A stretch of DNA of 5,746 nt. Source: Bryobacterales bacterium. Its GTDB lineage: Bacteria > Acidobacteriota > Terriglobia > Bryobacterales > Bryobacteraceae. Made by a program: the position numbers and the translations under genes. The notes below the pieces were generated by a model, which was given only the letters and a program-made list of their open reading frames with translations, did not search any database and had not been told where the DNA came from. The stretch lies in NCBI GenBank assembly GCA_003142355.1, contig PLMF01000193.1:1186-6931 (forward strand), in the 5' to 3' direction. This document shows positions 3 through 5,746 of this stretch, in pieces (position 1 is the stretch's first letter; each line of letters starts with the position of its first letter).

Positions 3-662
3 TTCGATGGGGAGCGCTACCTGGGCGACCGCTTTTCGATTTCCTATACGCCCAGCGCCAGCGTCTACTACCTGTGTTCGACCAAGAACGCGCCGCCGAC
101 GGCGGGCGCCCTGGTCCTGGGGGTTCCCGATCCGTCGGCGCCGCACATCCTGGATGAAGTCAAGGCGGTGTCTTCCGTGCTTTCGAACGCGGAAGTATTT
201 ACAGGCGCCGAAGCCACTCTGGAAGTGCTGCGCGAGAAAGGCTCGCAGTGCCGGTTTGTCCACATCGCCACTCACGGCTGGTTCCGCCAGGACAGTCCCA
301 TGTTCTCCTCCATCAGCCTGGGGGACTCGCAACTGAGCCTGTTTGACCTCTACCAGCTCGACCTTCCCGCCGAGCTGGTGACGCTGAGCGGTTGTGGAAC
401 CGGTCTGAACGTGGTGGTGGGGGGCGATGAGCTGTTGGGGCTGGTGCGCGGATTACTGTACGCGGGCGCCCAAGGAGTGCTGGTGACGCTTTGGGATGTC
501 AACGACCAGAGCACCGCCGAGTTCATGAAGCTGTTCTACGAGCATCTCAAGACCAACCCCAACAAGGCGCAAGCGGTGCAGCATGCCACGTCCGAGATCC
601 GCAAAAAGTACGCGCACCCATTCTATTGGGCGCCGTTCGTGCTGGTGGGGAAGTACGCGTAG
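3..662 (+). CDS. CHAT-domain (caspase-like) protein, C-terminal part, 5' end outside window
   Basis: The reading frame is open from the first bases of the window and encodes 219 residues to a TAG stop. It matches the C-terminal half of a CHAT domain, a caspase/separase-like cysteine protease fold often placed after TPR repeats in bacteria. What I see: a DGERYLGDR-type segment at the partial N terminus, then ISYTPSASVYYL, the histidine block HIATHGWF (presumed catalytic His at partial residue 91), the cysteine block LSGCGTG (presumed catalytic Cys at 131), GGDELLGLVRGLLYAGA, VTLWDVND, and the closing HPFYWAPFVLVG motif typical of the family's end. Both catalytic residues are present, so this copy looks active. 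TPR or other N-terminal domains would lie upstream and cannot be seen. The last 47 codons recur at 5387-5530. Substrate and role are unknown; CHAT proteases elsewhere act in regulated proteolysis and some defence systems, but nothing here shows which. Confidence 0.93.
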   Translation, partial: FDGERYLGDRFSISYTPSASVYYLCSTKNAPPTAGALVLGVPDPSAPHILDEVKAVSSVLSNAEVFTGAEATLEVLREKGSQCRFVHIATHGWFRQDSPMFSSISLGDSQLSLFDLYQLDLPAELVTLSGCGTGLNVVVGGDELLGLVRGLLYAGAQGVLVTLWDVNDQSTAEFMKLFYEHLKTNPNKAQAVQHATSEIRKKYAHPFYWAPFVLVGKYA

Positions 663-665
663 GGG
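519..665 (+). repeat. Direct repeat, left copy (CHAT 3' end)
   Basis: These 147 bases cover the last 47 codons of the CHAT gene, its stop and three following G residues. They align without gaps to 5387-5533 with 8 mismatches (about 94.6% identity by hand count). The first 50 bases are identical. Mismatches fall at 569, 572, 576, 577, 582, 591, 605 and 653. Four of the seven altered codons are silent. Confidence 0.93.
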
Positions 666-776
666 GGCCTAAACGTGGCGGTAGTCGTTTTGCCGCCGCC
701 CAACATTACCGTCTCGCTGTTCAGATTTCGAGGCCTACCCCTTCAAGCCTGGCACCTCCGCTATCTGGCCTAAACG
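666..776 (+). repeat. 10-bp direct repeat pair ggcctaaacg
   Basis: The sequence ggcctaaacg occurs exactly at 666-675 and again at 767-776. The first copy starts at the base where homology between the two CHAT tails ends. It may mark a breakpoint or be chance in GC-rich DNA. It does not fit an integron attC core (no GTTRRRY/RYYYAAC pairing recognised). Confidence 0.3.
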
Positions 777-932
777 CCCACCCGGACCCCACGCTGACTC
801 GGTCGACCTCAAAGGAGCGCTCGCCTCGGTCTCGGAATTAAGTGCCGGCGGTTCGCTCCTGTCTGCTTGACGCAGTGTTTCTCCCACACCGCTTCGGATG
901 TCTCCGCAGACGTCCGGCGTCCGAGCAGCGAA

Positions 933-949
933 CTAGGCGCGCCGCCTAG
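933..949. repeat. Short perfect inverted repeat ctaggc / gcctag
   Basis: A 6-bp perfect stem (933-938 with 944-949) encloses a 5-base loop. No T-run follows on either strand, so a Rho-independent terminator is unlikely. It could be a protein-binding dyad or chance. Confidence 0.3.
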
Positions 950-1062
950 AGTCACGTGGCCCTGAAAACCCTTTTCGGATTGTGGCTCGTGTTCGACGAT
1001 GAGACGCGAAATGCAAACACCCGGATCTAAGCTCGCTGACGACACCCGTATTCCCTTGTTGA

Positions 1063-1242
1063 TTACTGAACCATCGCCGGTTGAGGAACCGCAGCAGCCT
1101 GCTGCCGTCGCTCGGCTTCCGCCTTGCGCTTCTCGTCGGCCGCGTTGGCGCACTGCAATCTCGTCGAGGGCGCGCCGCTTTGCCTCCATTCAATCGCAAA
1201 CTTCGTCGTTTCCGGCAATACCGGTTCTGGGCGCCTGCAATC
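1063..1242 (-). pseudogene. Possible decayed 3' end of a small charged protein gene
   Basis: On the minus strand this frame is open for 59 codons between a TGA (1245-1243) and a TAA (1065-1063). Its end reads CANAADEKRKAEAERR followed by QQAAAVPQPAMVQ, a charged, alanine/glutamine-rich helical stretch with a Pro-containing tail, which looks more like real protein than the surrounding arginine-rich noise. An overlapping frame starts with ATG and reads MEAKRRALDEI just upstream, so a single-base frameshift near 1150-1160 would join two charged helical parts. There is no ribosome binding site of note and no recognised family. It may equally be a chance open frame; I record it as a possible remnant only. 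Confidence 0.22.
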
Positions 1243-1320
1243 TCACCCCGGTAGGAGACTCAGGGACTACTCTCACTGGGTGCTAAGTTCTGTTCGCGCG
1301 AGAGGAATACCCACGCCCGG

Positions 1321-1341
1321 CCGACATAGCTGCGATGTCGG
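1321..1341 (-). terminator. Candidate hairpin downstream of the secreted-protein gene
   Basis: A perfect 7-bp stem (ccgacat 1321-1327 with atgtcgg 1335-1341) with a 7-base loop lies 27 bases past the stop codon of the minus-strand gene. The position suits transcript ending or 3'-end protection. No U-tract follows in the minus-strand direction, so a classic Rho-independent terminator is not shown. Confidence 0.35.
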
Positions 1342-1368
1342 ACGGCACTGCGGCCCTTACCTGAAGCT

Positions 1369-4092
1369 TCAAGGTGTTACTTTGCATTTCTTGAGGGCAA
1401 ATTGTGGAGCGAATGGACTCTTGCCGAACTGAAGCACGATATCCTGCCATCGCTTGGCCGCAGGCAGGGTCGTGCTCAGTCCCCAACTGGTAGACGAGGT
1501 CAAGACAACAGACGTGAGCGCGATGTCCTTGTCGAGCGCGACCGGAGTGGCAGCGGCATTAAAATACCGGCCGGCGATCGTGAAATCCGCGGTAGTGATG
1601 TCCTTGTCGGTCTTTACCGTCGCCGTGCAAGCATCATCGCTGATGACCGGGGGGCCATCGTCGTCGTATGTGATGGATGTGTCAATGGTTTGTTCGGCGT
1701 GCGTCATGTAGTCGAAGTGCCAGTGTGGATAGGCAGGTTTGCGGGTAAAGCGCGCCTGAATGACGCCGGCGTTGAGCACTCGGTACTCGCCGGGAGCGAG
1801 CGGAGGCGGGGGTTCAACGGCAGCTTGTTCCTTCAGCGCGTCGCTGTTGAACAAAAAGGAATGCGGAATGTCCTTCCGGAATCCTTGTCCGAAGAGGTCG
1901 ACTAGCACCGAAACTCCGGTGTCGTCGGCATTGTAGTTGGGTGCGGCTCGGGTGAGGGTCGGGTTCTGATAAAACATTGGGGCTATGTCCTTGCTGTCGA
2001 GGGGCGTTTCTTCGTGAGGCCGTGTGCCATCCCATATGTGCAGATTGAAGCCGTTGATGACGGCTTCCCGTGCCGGGGTGATGATCGCGATGCGTGGCGT
2101 CCCGACGAAGGTTGATGGCATGACGAAGGAGAGGATGACTTGTTTGGAGCCGACCATTTCGAAGACGCCGGCAACGCCAGCGTCCCCCGCGCTCGCCGGA
2201 ACAGTAAATGCGGTCTGTTCCAGCATCGGCTGTCCGAGCGAAACAACCTTTTGCAGTGGTGTACCGTTGACGAGAATACCAACTTGGGTGCCGAACGTGC
2301 CCTCCAGTTCGAGCGTGATCCGGTTGCCTGCGGGCACGGGTTTGTAGGATGCACGGTCGATGTAGAAGTTGTCGATACGGTCTGGTATTTCCACGTCGTA
2401 GTGGACGGTGGTGCCACACTCCTCGCCATTGTTGGGTCGACCAAGTGCGTCCTTGAGAGATGGGGCGACTGGCACTTCTCGACGGCGGTAGCCGCAACCA
2501 ACGGCAGCCAGCCGGACGTATCGGGCGTTCTTAGGGACGACAATGATGGCGTAAGTGGTCCGAATCCCCGGCTCCATCCGCTTGGTGCCGGGTAGCGGTC
2601 CAAACGTCCAGCCGAAGATGTCTTGACCCTTGCCGAATGCCGACGCATATGCTTCCTGCTGGGCAAATTGGTCGTACTGGTCCCGCTGCCGCTCGTAACG
2701 GGCCTTGGCGCCAATACCGCTCAAGAGCCCAAATAGCCCGGCGAACCCATACCCACGGGAGACGCTTCGTGCCTCGGCGACGTTGAGCGCGCTGCGGCGC
2801 GGAATGAGGTCGAGTGCATAGAATGGCTGCGTCCTCGTGGCGACCTGTGCGGGAGGTTCTCCTGGCTTGCTCTTCGACCTCGGAGACGTTGATGTCTGGG
2901 GCCTTGCTCCCTCTTGATCGTTAGCTGTTACCTCTACGTACCGGTATTGAAACGGTTTCGCGGGTGGTTTCGCGGCTGGTTTCGCGGCTGGTTCCGCGGT
3001 TGGTTCCGCAGGTGGTTTCGCGGCTAATTTCCCGAAGAACCTCGCCAGGGCTTCCTTCGACGCTGGGTCGATTGCAGACCTACCGGTTGTGAGGTCGTCT
3101 TGCATTTGGTTCCGGGCGGGCAGACGTGACTGTTCGCCTTCACTGTCGTATGGGTTTGGTCGCTGAGCAGTGAGGACACCTTCGATCTGCCACCACGTTT
3201 GGACGAGGTGCGATCCCCAGAATGCCGCAAGGTCCGGATAGATTTTGAGTTTTTGGGTCACGTAGATGCTCTGGGGGAGTTCCAGGAAGATGACTCGGTT
3301 ATCCGGGCCTGCTTCGTCGCGCAGGAGCGTGAGTTGCTTGGCGACAATCTCGTACTGCAGATTGATGTAGTTATCGAGCTTGATGGAGGCCTGCAGTTTA
3401 CTGTTGTTGAGCCCTTGGGGGAGTCCTGTCATCATGGTTGCGAACGTCGAGTTCGCGCCAAGGACGGTCGCGGTGGTAGCGTCGGAGGGCGTCGTGCTTG
3501 TCAGGCCCGAGAGACTAGGCGAGGTCGCACTGATGGTCGTTTTCAAGGTTGCGAGGCGGGTGTCAACGGCCGCCTTGAGTGCGGTGGCGCGTGCCACTTC
3601 GGCCGCTTGTAGTTGGATCTTCTGTTGATCGGGAGGCGCTTGTGCTTGCAGCACGGTCAGTTGGTACTGCGCGGTAGCGAGATCGCCGGCGGCCGCCGCC
3701 TGTTGGCCAACAAGCTGGTCTTGCTGCGCAGTCAGTTCGTTCACTCTGGTGAGATCGTGCTGGTACTGGGAGATCGAGCTCGCGTTCTTTTTTCCAGTGG
3801 CCTGATCATACTGCGCTTGCACACTCAGCAGTGATTTGATGGCGTCGAGCCGATACCCGACGATTTCGTTCGCATCCAGTGGTCCCAGATCCTGTGCGGC
3901 TATGCCCAGATCGTGGGAGCGGTTACGTTCCAATAGGTAGTGTGCCTGGTCCATCGTCCACGCATTCGGCTGGCCGACTGTAACGATTACGGTCGGTTTG
4001 CCGGCGGAGTGCTCCACTGCCTGGGCGAAAACGAGCGTCGCGAGGGTAACGAGCAGGACGACAGAGAAACTGAACTGGTGGCGTCTGATCAT
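1369..4092 (-). CDS. Large exported protein of unknown family (signal peptide, coiled coil, KPA repeats, beta-rich C-terminal half)
   Basis: The product is 907 residues from the ATG at 4092. I chose this start because GGAGA sits 8 bases upstream and the protein then begins with a textbook signal peptide: MIRRHQ, a hydrophobic core to about residue 22, and a likely cleavage after VFAQA (residue 25). A GTG further upstream (4263) would add 57 residues that look noncoding. Regions seen: 30-100, soluble segment; about 105-190, Gln/Ala/Leu-rich, likely coiled coil; 190-225, Ser/Thr-rich linker; 230-310, mixed segment with RVIFLELPQSIYV and aromatic QTWWQIE; 357-380, repeats of the Lys-Pro-Ala type; 395-420, disordered basic linker; 446-462, glycine-rich hydrophobic GYGFAGLFGLLSGIG that could touch a membrane; about 510-907, beta-strand-rich with VDLFGQGF- and FTIAGRYF-like strands suggesting Ig-like or IPT/TIG-type folds. 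Cysteines at about 533, 559, 822 and 903 could form disulfides outside the cytoplasm. I recognise no enzyme motif. It is transcribed toward the CHAT gene and away from the transposase. Confidence 0.88.
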   Translation of the reverse strand: MIRRHQFSFSVVLLVTLATLVFAQAVEHSAGKPTVIVTVGQPNAWTMDQAHYLLERNRSHDLGIAAQDLGPLDANEIVGYRLDAIKSLLSVQAQYDQATGKKNASSISQYQHDLTRVNELTAQQDQLVGQQAAAAGDLATAQYQLTVLQAQAPPDQQKIQLQAAEVARATALKAAVDTRLATLKTTISATSPSLSGLTSTTPSDATTATVLGANSTFATMMTGLPQGLNNSKLQASIKLDNYINLQYEIVAKQLTLLRDEAGPDNRVIFLELPQSIYVTQKLKIYPDLAAFWGSHLVQTWWQIEGVLTAQRPNPYDSEGEQSRLPARNQMQDDLTTGRSAIDPASKEALARFFGKLAAKPPAEPTAEPAAKPAAKPPAKPFQYRYVEVTANDQEGARPQTSTSPRSKSKPGEPPAQVATRTQPFYALDLIPRRSALNVAEARSVSRGYGFAGLFGLLSGIGAKARYERQRDQYDQFAQQEAYASAFGKGQDIFGWTFGPLPGTKRMEPGIRTTYAIIVVPKNARYVRLAAVGCGYRRREVPVAPSLKDALGRPNNGEECGTTVHYDVEIPDRIDNFYIDRASYKPVPAGNRITLELEGTFGTQVGILVNGTPLQKVVSLGQPMLEQTAFTVPASAGDAGVAGVFEMVGSKQVILSFVMPSTFVGTPRIAIITPAREAVINGFNLHIWDGTRPHEETPLDSKDIAPMFYQNPTLTRAAPNYNADDTGVSVLVDLFGQGFRKDIPHSFLFNSDALKEQAAVEPPPPLAPGEYRVLNAGVIQARFTRKPAYPHWHFDYMTHAEQTIDTSITYDDDGPPVISDDACTATVKTDKDITTADFTIAGRYFNAAATPVALDKDIALTSVVLTSSTSWGLSTTLPAAKRWQDIVLQFGKSPFAPQFALKKCKVTP
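2954..3025 (-). repeat. Six 12-bp tandem repeat units coding for a Lys-Pro-Ala linker
   Basis: Six units of about ggtttcgcggct (plus-strand reading) stand head to tail at 2954, 2966, 2978, 2990, 3002 and 3014. They encode a tetrapeptide repeat of the AKPA/AEPT type, residues about 357-380 of the exported protein. Units differ at a few bases, for example ttc/tcc, which turns Lys into Glu in two units. Such repeats form extended cell-wall-spanning or periplasm-spanning linkers, as in TonB/TolA-like proteins, and can change length by slippage. Confidence 0.85.
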
Positions 4093-4236
4093 GTCCGAGT
4101 CTCCAAGGAAATCGGCGAACGCTTGTGCCGTACGCCTCCATACTTTCCAAGCGCAAAACGACGCTGGAAGGGGACAGGAAACCCGCGGAACTGTCCTGGC
4201 GGGCATCACCCAGGATTCCGTTATTACTGCCTGGGT
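4093..4236 (-). promoter_or_regulatory. Structured 5' leader of the exported-protein gene
   Basis: If transcription starts about 7 bases after the TATAAT at 4248-4243, the leader is about 144 bases. It holds two inverted repeats: cccagg (4209-4214) with cctggg (4230-4235), loop 15, and ggacag (4172-4177) with ctgtcc (4191-4196), loop 13. I do not recognise a known riboswitch. The stems could be leader structure or chance; the start site is inferred. Confidence 0.35.
4100..4104 (-). promoter_or_regulatory. Ribosome binding site fixing the start of the exported protein
   Basis: The minus strand reads GGAGA followed by 8 bases and ATG at 4092. This spacing is optimal and decides for the ATG directly ahead of the signal peptide rather than the upstream GTG at 4263. 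Confidence 0.8.
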
Positions 4237-4242
4237 TTCGCA

Positions 4243-4248
4243 ATTATA
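4243..4248 (-). promoter_or_regulatory. Perfect -10 box (TATAAT) for the exported-protein gene
   Basis: The minus strand carries TATAAT preceded directly by TG, about 150 bases ahead of the start codon and oriented toward it. The hexamer at the usual 17-base spacing upstream (GCCCAA) is a poor -35, so the promoter may need an activator or alternative contacts. The 18-bp palindrome at 4262-4279 covers the place where the -35 should be. Confidence 0.5.
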
Positions 4249-4261
4249 CACTAAATTGCCC

Positions 4262-4279
4262 ACTGTTGGGCCAAACAGT
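4262..4279. promoter_or_regulatory. 18-bp near-palindrome, possible operator at the -35 position
   Basis: ACTGTTGGGCCAAACAGT is symmetric at 16 of 18 positions: outer arms ACTGTT/AACAGT around a GGCC core, with one mismatched pair. Its centre lies about 34 bases upstream of the inferred minus-strand start site, where a bound dimeric regulator would block or replace -35 contacts. It also lies just outside or within the left end of the IS, so it could instead belong to the element. The regulator is unknown. Confidence 0.45.
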
Positions 4280-4286
4280 CACCACA

Positions 4287-5386
4287 TGTCGCGGCAAAGT
4301 GATAATGTCCTATTTGGGCAAAGTAGAAATGTCCTATTGACAGGGTCCAGCTTGGAGGGTGGACAAAGAACAACTACTGATGACCCAAGCCGAGCGAGAT
4401 CGGCTGGTGGCCTTGAAGAGGGCCAAGAAGAAACTGATCACGCAGAAGCAGGCAGCCGAGGAGATCGGCGTCACGGAGCGGCAGGTGCGGCGACTCCTGC
4501 GCAAGCTGCGGCGAAAAGGCGACCGGGCGGTAATCCATGAGTTGCGTGGACGGGCGTCGAATCGGAAACTGCCGGCCGAGATGGAACAGCGAGCGATCAC
4601 GGTCCTTTCCGATCCGGTGTACCGGGGATTTGGGCCGACGCTGGCGGCAGAGTACCTGTACAATCTGCACGAGATTACGGTGAGCAAGGAAACGCTGCGG
4701 CGATGGATGGTGGAGGCGGGACTGTGGAAAGCCGGCCGTCGGCGGGTGGTGGAGGTGCACCAGTGGCGGCCGCGGCGGAGCCGCTGTGGCGAGCTGGTGC
4801 AGTGGGATACCAGCACCCACGACTGGCTGGAGGGCCGTGGGGAGCAGATCTATCTGATTTCGATGATCGACGATGCCACCAGTCGGCTGTTCGCGCGGTT
4901 CGTGCATCACGACACCAGCGAAGAGAACATGCGGCTGCTGTGGGCATATCTGGAGCGGTTCGGTCGGCCGCTGGCGTTTTACACGGATAAGGCGGGCATG
5001 TTCCAGGTGGCGGTCAAGACCAAACGGCAGGAGCAGTGCGAAGACCGGGACCGGCCCCAGATGTTGCCCACGCAGATCGAAGGGGCCTTGCGCGAGCTGC
5101 ACGTGGTCTGGATTCCGGCGCACTCGCCGCAGGCCAAAGGGCGCGTCGAGCGCCAGTTTTTGACGGCGCAGGACCGCCTGATGAAAGGGATGCGTGTGGC
5201 CGGGGTGCACACCATCGAAGAGGCCAATGCGTACCTGGAGGAGGAGTTTTTACCCTGGTGGAACCGGACCTTGACGGTGGAGCCGGCCCATGCTGCGGAC
5301 GCCCACCGGCCGTTGGGCAAAGAGCACAACCTGGCGGCGATCCTGAGCCACGTCGAACAGCGGCAGGTGACCAATGACTACACCGT
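4287..5386 (+). mobile_element. IS1202-type (ISNCY family) insertion sequence, right end deleted
   Basis: The element is defined by its transposase and by repeated short motifs ahead of it. The left boundary is uncertain: tgtcgcgg at 4287 is a plausible terminal sequence, but the palindrome at 4262 could also be included. The right boundary is the abrupt switch to CHAT-tail sequence at 5387. Inverted copies of the left-end motif (aataggacatt) are not seen downstream or elsewhere in the window, so the right end is lost and the copy should not move unless another element supplies ends and transposase. Confidence 0.7.
4296..4338 (+). repeat. Subterminal direct repeats at the IS left end
   Basis: Two 19-base units, aaagtgataatgtcctatt (4296-4314) and aaagtagaaatgtcctatt (4320-4338), are spaced 24 bases apart and share an identical 11-base core aatgtcctatt. 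They differ at three adjacent bases. Position between the probable IS end and the transposase gene, and spacing near two helical turns, fit transposase-binding sites. Confidence 0.65.
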
Positions 5387-5396
5387 GAGTTCATGA
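4359..5396 (+). CDS. IS1202-type (ISNCY family) DDE transposase, C-terminally truncated
   Basis: The open frame encodes 345 residues. Domains: an N-terminal helix-turn-helix with the family-typical ERDRLVALKRAKKKLITQKQ start and GVTERQVRRLLRKL recognition region (about 27-50), a second DNA-binding segment to about 125, then an RNase H-like integrase core with D150 (QWDTSTHDW), D210 (YTDKAGMF) and E264 (QAKGRVERQF), the DDE triad. The sequence stays family-like through VTNDYTV and then ends in SS and TGA, because the DNA switches to CHAT-tail sequence in another frame. Relatives usually continue for several tens of residues, so the C terminus is lost. Start: the GTG at 4359 gives the longest frame, but GGAGG directly abuts it with no spacing; the ATG at 4380 (MTQAERDRL) is the other candidate. 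It diverges from the exported-protein gene. Catalytic residues are intact, but activity is doubtful. Confidence 0.9.
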   Translation: MDKEQLLMTQAERDRLVALKRAKKKLITQKQAAEEIGVTERQVRRLLRKLRRKGDRAVIHELRGRASNRKLPAEMEQRAITVLSDPVYRGFGPTLAAEYLYNLHEITVSKETLRRWMVEAGLWKAGRRRVVEVHQWRPRRSRCGELVQWDTSTHDWLEGRGEQIYLISMIDDATSRLFARFVHHDTSEENMRLLWAYLERFGRPLAFYTDKAGMFQVAVKTKRQEQCEDRDRPQMLPTQIEGALRELHVVWIPAHSPQAKGRVERQFLTAQDRLMKGMRVAGVHTIEEANAYLEEEFLPWWNRTLTVEPAHAADAHRPLGKEHNLAAILSHVEQRQVTNDYTVSS

Positions 5397-5530
5397 AGCT
5401 GTTCTACGAGCATCTCAAGACCAACCCCAACAAGGCCCAGGCGACGCAGTATGCCACGGCCGAGATCCGCAAGAAGTACGCGCACCCATTCTATTGGGCG
5501 CCGTTCGTGCTGGTGGGGAAATACGCGTAG
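5387..5530 (+). pseudogene. CHAT-domain protein gene fragment: last 47 codons only
   Basis: This frame reads EFMKLFYEHLKTNPNKAQAT and continues to HPFYWAPFVLVGKYA and TAG, matching residues 173-219 of the partial CHAT protein at 3-662 with three substitutions (Val to Thr, His to Tyr, Ser to Ala). The catalytic His and Cys blocks are missing. It starts abruptly where the transposase frame is broken and is one frame off from it, so no fusion protein is made. The frame still has no stop or indel, and four of seven changed codons are silent, which suggests that most divergence arose while it was part of a working gene, or that the truncation is recent. Its stop lies 21 bp from the nikR stop. Confidence 0.88.
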
Positions 5531-5533
5531 GGG
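5387..5533 (+). repeat. Direct repeat, right copy (CHAT 3' end)
   Basis: This is the right partner of 519-665, in the same orientation and 4721 bp away. Homology stops after tagggg-type sequence: the left copy continues into ggcctaaacg and the right copy into tgcggggttc. Upstream of the repeat both copies happen to share caccg with one base of offset, a possible microhomology at the junction. Confidence 0.9.
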
Positions 5534-5551
5534 TGCGGGGTTCAGGCGGAT

Positions 5552-5746
5552 TTACAGCGCGGCGCTGCTGGCGGTGATCGCCAACTGGGCGTGTTTGACA
5601 CCTTTGGTGGCGGCCAGCAAGCTGGCGAAGCGCTGAACGTCGGCCGACGTGCCGCGCAGCGCAATCAACTCCATGCAGTTGTCATGATCCAAATGGATAT
5701 GCAGTACGGATAGAATCAGGCGGTGATGGTTGTGCTGCATTTCGGT
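5552..5746 (-). CDS. nikR: Nickel-responsive transcriptional regulator NikR, C-terminal domain (5' end outside window)
   Basis: The minus-strand frame is open from the window edge to TAA (5554-5552) and gives the last 64 residues. It matches the ACT-like nickel-binding and tetramerisation domain of NikR, a ribbon-helix-helix repressor of nickel uptake genes. The signature VLHIHLDHDNC is present, followed by ELIALRG, VQRFASLLAATKGVKH. By alignment from memory with E. coli NikR, partial residues H5, H16, H18 and C24 correspond to the square-planar nickel ligands H76, H87, H89 and C95, so all four are kept. The N-terminal DNA-binding ribbon-helix-helix would lie outside the window. It converges on the CHAT fragment with 21 bp between stops. 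No nickel transporter gene is visible here. Confidence 0.93.
   Translation of the reverse strand, partial: TEMQHNHHRLILSVLHIHLDHDNCMELIALRGTSADVQRFASLLAATKGVKHAQLAITASSAAL

Follow-up and report, generated by a model that had tools for sequence, protein, structure and literature searches.

Why does the 3' end of a TPR-CHAT type gene occur twice, in direct orientation and with some 4.7 kb between the copies, in the window (the whole 5,746-nt stretch of DNA, of acidobacterial type, analysed here)? The original prediction offered two models, namely (a) tandem CHAT paralogues of which the second was cut by an IS-linked deletion, and (b) insertion, at the CHAT 3' end, of a segment with a tail of its own. 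The features on which the question turns are the following.

3..662, + strand: C-terminal 219 codons of a TPR-CHAT type gene (PF12770, E 4.1e-54; stop at 660-662)
519..665, + strand: left repeat copy (repeat search and base count)
1066..1189, - strand: frameshifted remnant of a tyrosine-recombinase C-terminal tail (tblastn of a piece of G001, G001:C171)
1369..4092, - strand: 907-aa ORF with a signal-peptide-like start, an accessory gene
4287..5386, + strand: ISNCY element, left end present, right part (~674 bp) missing
4380..5396, + strand: truncated transposase frame that reads on into the CHAT tail, with VTNDYTVSS as its last residues before the stop
5387..5533, + strand: right repeat copy, a dead remnant of a CHAT gene comprising its final 47 codons and the stop (5528-5530)
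5552..5746, - strand: C-terminal part of nikR (PF08753, E 2.1e-21)

The repeat pair and the fused junction

Counted base by base, 139 of 147 positions are identical between 519-665 and 5387-5533 (8 mismatches), exactly the coordinates and the count first proposed. A repeat search returned 519-668 and 5387-5536 in direct orientation, with 94% identity and a start-to-start distance of 4868 nt. The longest exact run is 50 bp and occupies the first 50 bp of the repeat, all mismatches lying 3' of it. Together, this run and the overall identity indicate that the repeat is not due to chance.

The two copies belong to very different contexts. The left CHAT frame is open from base 3, scores 184 bits against PF12770 (Pfam cut-off 24) and is 93% identical in DNA to the full gene of G001, at the locus that we call L001. 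Upstream of the repeat it carries a THG motif at 270 and an SGCGTG motif at 387, which we take to hold the catalytic His and Cys. The right copy begins at the equivalent of position 519, past both motifs, and so contains neither; its stop lies 21 bp from that of nikR, which is on the opposite strand. The description of the left copy as the end of a CHAT C terminus and of the right copy as only a tail next to nikR therefore stands.

Over the 147 bp, left and right tails differ at 8 positions, left tail and G001 at 9, and right tail and G001 at 7. By these counts the two tails and the G001 gene appear to be roughly equidistant homologues at species distance. As the left and right copies have diverged as far from one another as from the gene of another species, a recent target-site duplication is unlikely and was rejected, in agreement with the earlier argument from divergence. 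All three changes private to the right tail fall at codon positions 1 or 2, while of the left tail's five private changes four fall at position 3; the numbers are very small, and the split is in the direction that a lack of selection on the right tail would produce.

The right copy is joined directly to a broken insertion sequence. The ISNCY transposase scores 352 bits against NF033594 (E 3e-105; curated cut-off 250), and a copy in G001 that has both ends, with an internal gap, runs ~674 bp beyond the point at which the window's element breaks off (5386). Measured against a full element, with both terminal repeats and a full transposase, the window's copy is incomplete, and a broken IS does lie between the two tails, as had been noted. 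At the junction (5386/5387) the IS match stops where the CHAT match begins, leaving a 3'-truncated transposase fused to the CHAT tail, whereas P0122 and most of the transposase relatives listed are ~436 aa long. The same fusion residues, VTNDYTVSS, form the C-terminus of P0121, an ENA protein from a 1757-bp contig that represents a cluster of 16 sequences (the representative alone was compared). Its presence in a second assembly makes it unlikely that the IS/CHAT fusion is an error of a single assembly.

Between the copies, the ~700 bp 3' of the left CHAT stop hold no intact gene. They include the recombinase remnant, an addition to the earlier description, which corresponds to the part downstream of the catalytic domain and is 82% identical in DNA to G001:C171. 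The G001 piece matches PF00589 (E 1.2e-7) over its residues 3-43, and tblastn matched its residues 43-57 and 57-83 in two window frames. Integrase tails of this type are multi-copy in the genomes compared. The 907-aa ORF had been described as an orphan exported-protein gene; its start, judged by eye, is signal-peptide-like, and a strict orphan it is not, as 220 relatives were counted (120 listed). It was matched in 5 of the 237 genomes of G001's family, and a 2-residue gap is all that separates it from P0001, encoded on a different contig of 11,205 bp. Pfam, NCBIfam and PADLOC returned no match to it. Plasmid records gave no match to this protein or, in a close-match search, to the window DNA, and a scan of viral contigs that reached close relatives only matched neither this protein nor the full CHAT protein of L001. 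No RNA element was matched in the window by Rfam up to E 1.

CHAT loci in relatives

The CHAT part was matched at E 1e-50 or better in 50 of the 237 family genomes, at 55 places, the best 40 of which were compared. At L001 the gene order is solute-binding protein, ECF sigma factor, TPR-CHAT, gene A and subtilase, and most other loci among the ORF comparisons listed have the same neighbours. Seventeen of the loci are orthologues at 70% identity or above. In the stretch compared, each shows one CHAT match (three with less than 400 bp downstream), and no second CHAT was found near any of them; four of their genomes also encode a more distant CHAT, on a different contig. The strains with two full CHAT genes that the tandem model had called for were thus not seen. 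Nor did any relative compared have a CHAT gene facing nikR, the proposed empty site; in G161, which has the nearest nikR (91% identical in protein, 89% in DNA over 5543-5746), this gene faces an MFS gene (PF07690, E 5.3e-59) with no CHAT tail.

Fourteen of the 17 close orthologues have at least 1.2 kb of sequence downstream, and in nine of these gene A lies within 121-244 bp of CHAT. In the other five it is displaced (to 1.7 kb after CHAT in G001 and 3.1 kb in G006) or was not found in the sequence compared (1.3 kb in G002, 7.3 kb in G004 and 14 kb in G012). Gene A and the subtilase gene are both absent from the window.

Origin of the second tail

Our leading, though tentative, explanation is that the right copy is a dead 3' remnant, in the same genome, of a second TPR-CHAT allele diverged by ~5%, either a xenologue or an old paralogue. 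A single illegitimate deletion, with one end inside the ISNCY transposase and the other inside this second CHAT gene, would have taken the right part of the IS and the 5' part of CHAT, leaving IS, CHAT tail and nikR in a row. The stretch between the tails would then be a debris zone of integrase remnant, 907-aa gene and IS in place of the gene A and subtilase of relatives. We infer the deletion itself, the arrival of a second allele and the presence of both copies in one chromosome. This explanation is supported by the one break at 5386/5387 at which IS and CHAT copy are both cut short, by VTNDYTVSS in P0121, by the codon positions of the private changes and by the lack of gene A in the window. 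We favour the dead tail since it requires the fewest coincidences at the junction. Model (a) therefore fits the junction best in its second half, the IS-linked deletion, but its tandem paralogues find no counterpart in the 17 orthologues. Counting against a remnant are that lack of a tandem or second close CHAT in relatives, the linkage of the window's halves through a multi-copy IS, which P0121 does not confirm, and the different kinship of the window's two ends. Only if the contig is right does the dead tail truly lie 4.7 kb from a full CHAT gene.

The link between the halves may instead be an assembly error, and a jump of the assembler inside the multi-copy ISNCY is nearly as likely as an in-genome remnant. 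A left half (CHAT, the 907-aa gene and the IS 5' half) would then have been joined to a right half (the IS 3' half, the CHAT tail and nikR) from another locus and perhaps another species; the CHAT tail by nikR would be a remnant in that other genome, and the framing would not exist. Such chimeric contigs arising through shared k-mers are described in passages of PMC7299287. The transposase itself is suggestive: between the window and P0121 there are 13 differences in the first 156 residues and none in the next 182, and the nearest relative switches from P0125 in the first half to P0121, then P0122, in the second. However, similar mosaics occur in other pairs among the 84 transposase copies compared, and the chimera may lie in P0121, whose contig is 1757 bp long. 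Judged from these sequences, the mosaic may stem from assembly (of the window or of P0121) or from gene conversion. IS-end matches at many sites in G004 also fit a jump within the element, as do the two tails, which are as far apart as two species.

The ends of the window point the same way. G001 is the genome closest to the left end (93% in DNA), while G161 is closest to the nikR end. Yet when an 11.4-kb contig of G161 was matched to G001, its two longest matches reached only 76-77% identity (others 66-69%). This contig served for the comparison because ribosomal protein L2 was found in neither genome and the RpoB domain was not found in G161. A G001-like left end beside a G161-like nikR end, set against this lower identity, would mean either that DNA moved between lineages or that two loci were joined inside the IS. 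The right tail, at 95% to G001 beside a G161-like nikR, would nevertheless be a mosaic even without any jump in the IS.

Model (b), in the form of site-specific integration at the CHAT 3' end, is improbable by comparison. Here an element would have restored the gene with a tail of its own, now the left copy, and displaced the native tail to its far side, now the right copy, before losing its integrase and being damaged by the IS. Elements at the 3' ends of protein genes are known, and trmE and yicC are given as examples in passages of PMC8409611. Within the window, the integrase tail remnant ~400 bp inside the left edge is a weak hint of integration, and the confinement of mismatches to the region beyond the identical 50 bp would suit it, but there is no working integrase and the multi-copy tail may be present by chance. 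Two of the model's predictions are contradicted: the right tail is followed by nikR instead of gene A, and at the right edge there is a broken IS, which would require the element to end exactly where the IS broke.

A second weak hint of integration at the CHAT 3' end comes from G004, which independently duplicates it around other cargo. When each of the 40 loci was searched for further copies of its own CHAT 3' region, direct repeats spanning the CHAT stop were found in G004 (110 bp, 96%) and G006 (31 bp), the latter not counted, as its sequence resembles a small dispersed palindromic repeat. The unit repeated in G004 comprises the final 52 bp of CHAT and 58 bp past the stop; it lies at 4283-4392 and again at 6085-6194, with a BrnT-type toxin gene and an epimerase gene between the two copies. 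These limits differ from those in the window, and the scaffold has a run of N ~125 bp after the second copy, so that the G004 duplication too is not beyond doubt. In a control that dropped matches less than 300 bp apart, 330 gene 3' ends (CHAT included) gave four spanning direct matches (the G004 CHAT, the 31 bp of G006, 36 bp in L143 and a 74% pair in L154), and 299 gene 5' ends gave one. Among these 3' ends from the 40 loci, G004 is thus the sole long, high-identity case, unusual but single, and we make no statistical claim for a CHAT hotspot.

Searches with the tail alone matched 63 of the 237 family genomes. Six of the matches listed have an open frame below 300 aa; the coordinates of five run to the end of a contig, leaving the G004 copy. 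Among proteins of tail length, a protein collection gave 12 matches: P0247, P0251 and P0252 read as CHAT tails with other N-termini, P0243 is an odd inverted-repeat-like join and the other eight are CHAT pieces possibly cut by contig ends; these figures are for CHAT alone. P0247 occurs on 20 contigs, the longest of 112,691 bp, and the start of P0251 presumably resembles an AbrB-type antitoxin. The tail duplications in the window and G004, these tail-only ORFs and the five loci of 14 in which gene A is displaced (two) or not found (three, one with 1.3 kb only) keep alive, at low probability, the reading of the CHAT 3' end as a recurrent recombination or integration site in G001's family. Were it true, the operon of ECF sigma, TPR-CHAT, gene A and subtilase genes would contain an insertion hotspot, its cargo including, for example, the BrnT-type toxin gene of G004.

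Less probable still is Campbell-type integration, in which a single homologous crossover within the 147 bp brought in a circle with a CHAT tail already truncated by an IS; this would yield exactly two direct copies, and the 50-bp identical run could be the tract, but gene A is missing on the far side and neither the window DNA, in a close-match search, nor the 907-aa protein matched a plasmid record. All other explanations together we consider very improbable.

Comparison with known systems

The whole arrangement looks like ordinary genome debris, the product of a kind of event that is already known, and it carries a caution: a strikingly framed segment in a contig can arise from a dead gene tail and a multi-copy IS. 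The dead remnant that we favour resembles gene remnants left by deletions beside truncated IS elements in its one break common to gene tail and IS, its loss of catalytic residues and its private changes at codon positions 1 and 2; it differs in that, if the contig is right, a full CHAT end ~5% diverged lies 4.7 kb away. With ISNCY insertion sequences the element shares a transposase above the curated cut-off and the left terminal sequence, but it has lost its right part and is a dead copy.

The direct 3'-end repeat around a segment with an integrase remnant recalls the integrative elements at trmE and yicC 3' ends, in so far as passages of PMC8409611 describe them. Unlike these, the window has diverged repeats, a broken-IS edge, no usual downstream gene and, in place of an integrase gene adjoining the attachment site, only a frameshifted C-terminal tail remnant. 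For a sigma-CHAT-subtilase operon, type III-E work was the only clearly related literature found. The TPR-CHAT protease Csx29 of type III-E CRISPR systems, as portrayed in passages of PMC10028731, is similar in being a TPR-CHAT protein, which in relatives of the window adjoins an ECF sigma gene. The full L001 protein scores 54 bits against the Csx29 profile NF041237, well below the curated cut-off of 300, and no CRISPR genes were noticed in the stretches read.

A second duplicated CHAT 3' end

In a related genome, G004, the 3' end of a CHAT gene is likewise present in two direct copies.

L004 (G004:C393) 4283-4392 and 6085-6194: direct copies of the CHAT 3' end, 110 bp, 96%

Between these copies lie, as cargo, genes for a BrnT-type toxin and for an epimerase, and the duplication is independent of that in the window. 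A CHAT tail also occurs behind another N-terminus in P0251, a 38-aa ORF from the protein collection. Its start is presumably AbrB-like and meets the tail in a peptide common to both, AEIRKKY; this may be a microhomology join or an assembly chimera.

Repeated DNA within the window

The DNA of the integrase C-terminal tail (1061-1189) recurs at further places in G001, G003-G007 and G137. As it lies at several places within several of these genomes, related recombinases or their remnants are common there. Within the 907-aa gene, six repeats with 12-bp spacing (2942-3037) are read as a Pro/Ala/Lys-rich linker of the AAKPPAEP type.

The TPR-CHAT operon of relatives

Most of the CHAT loci compared share the neighbours seen in L001, and in G006 two ORFs separate CHAT from gene A.

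L001 3861-12825: ECF sigma - TPR-CHAT - gene A - subtilase operon
L006 (G006) 10829-13530: two ORFs, 400 and 498 aa

Judged by eye, the shorter and the longer of the G006 ORFs, in some order, resemble a dipeptidase and an oxidase of the FAD-linked type. Gene A had no Pfam match, and all five proteins examined carry an H-x4-C-x2-C motif close to the N-terminus, which we take to be reminiscent of zinc-binding anti-sigma factors. A literature search for this operon found nothing on such an arrangement. Although the L001 TPR-CHAT does not reach the profile score of Csx29, the protease of type III-E CASP, the operon resembles the sigma/inhibitor/TPR-CHAT logic of that system (PMC10028731).
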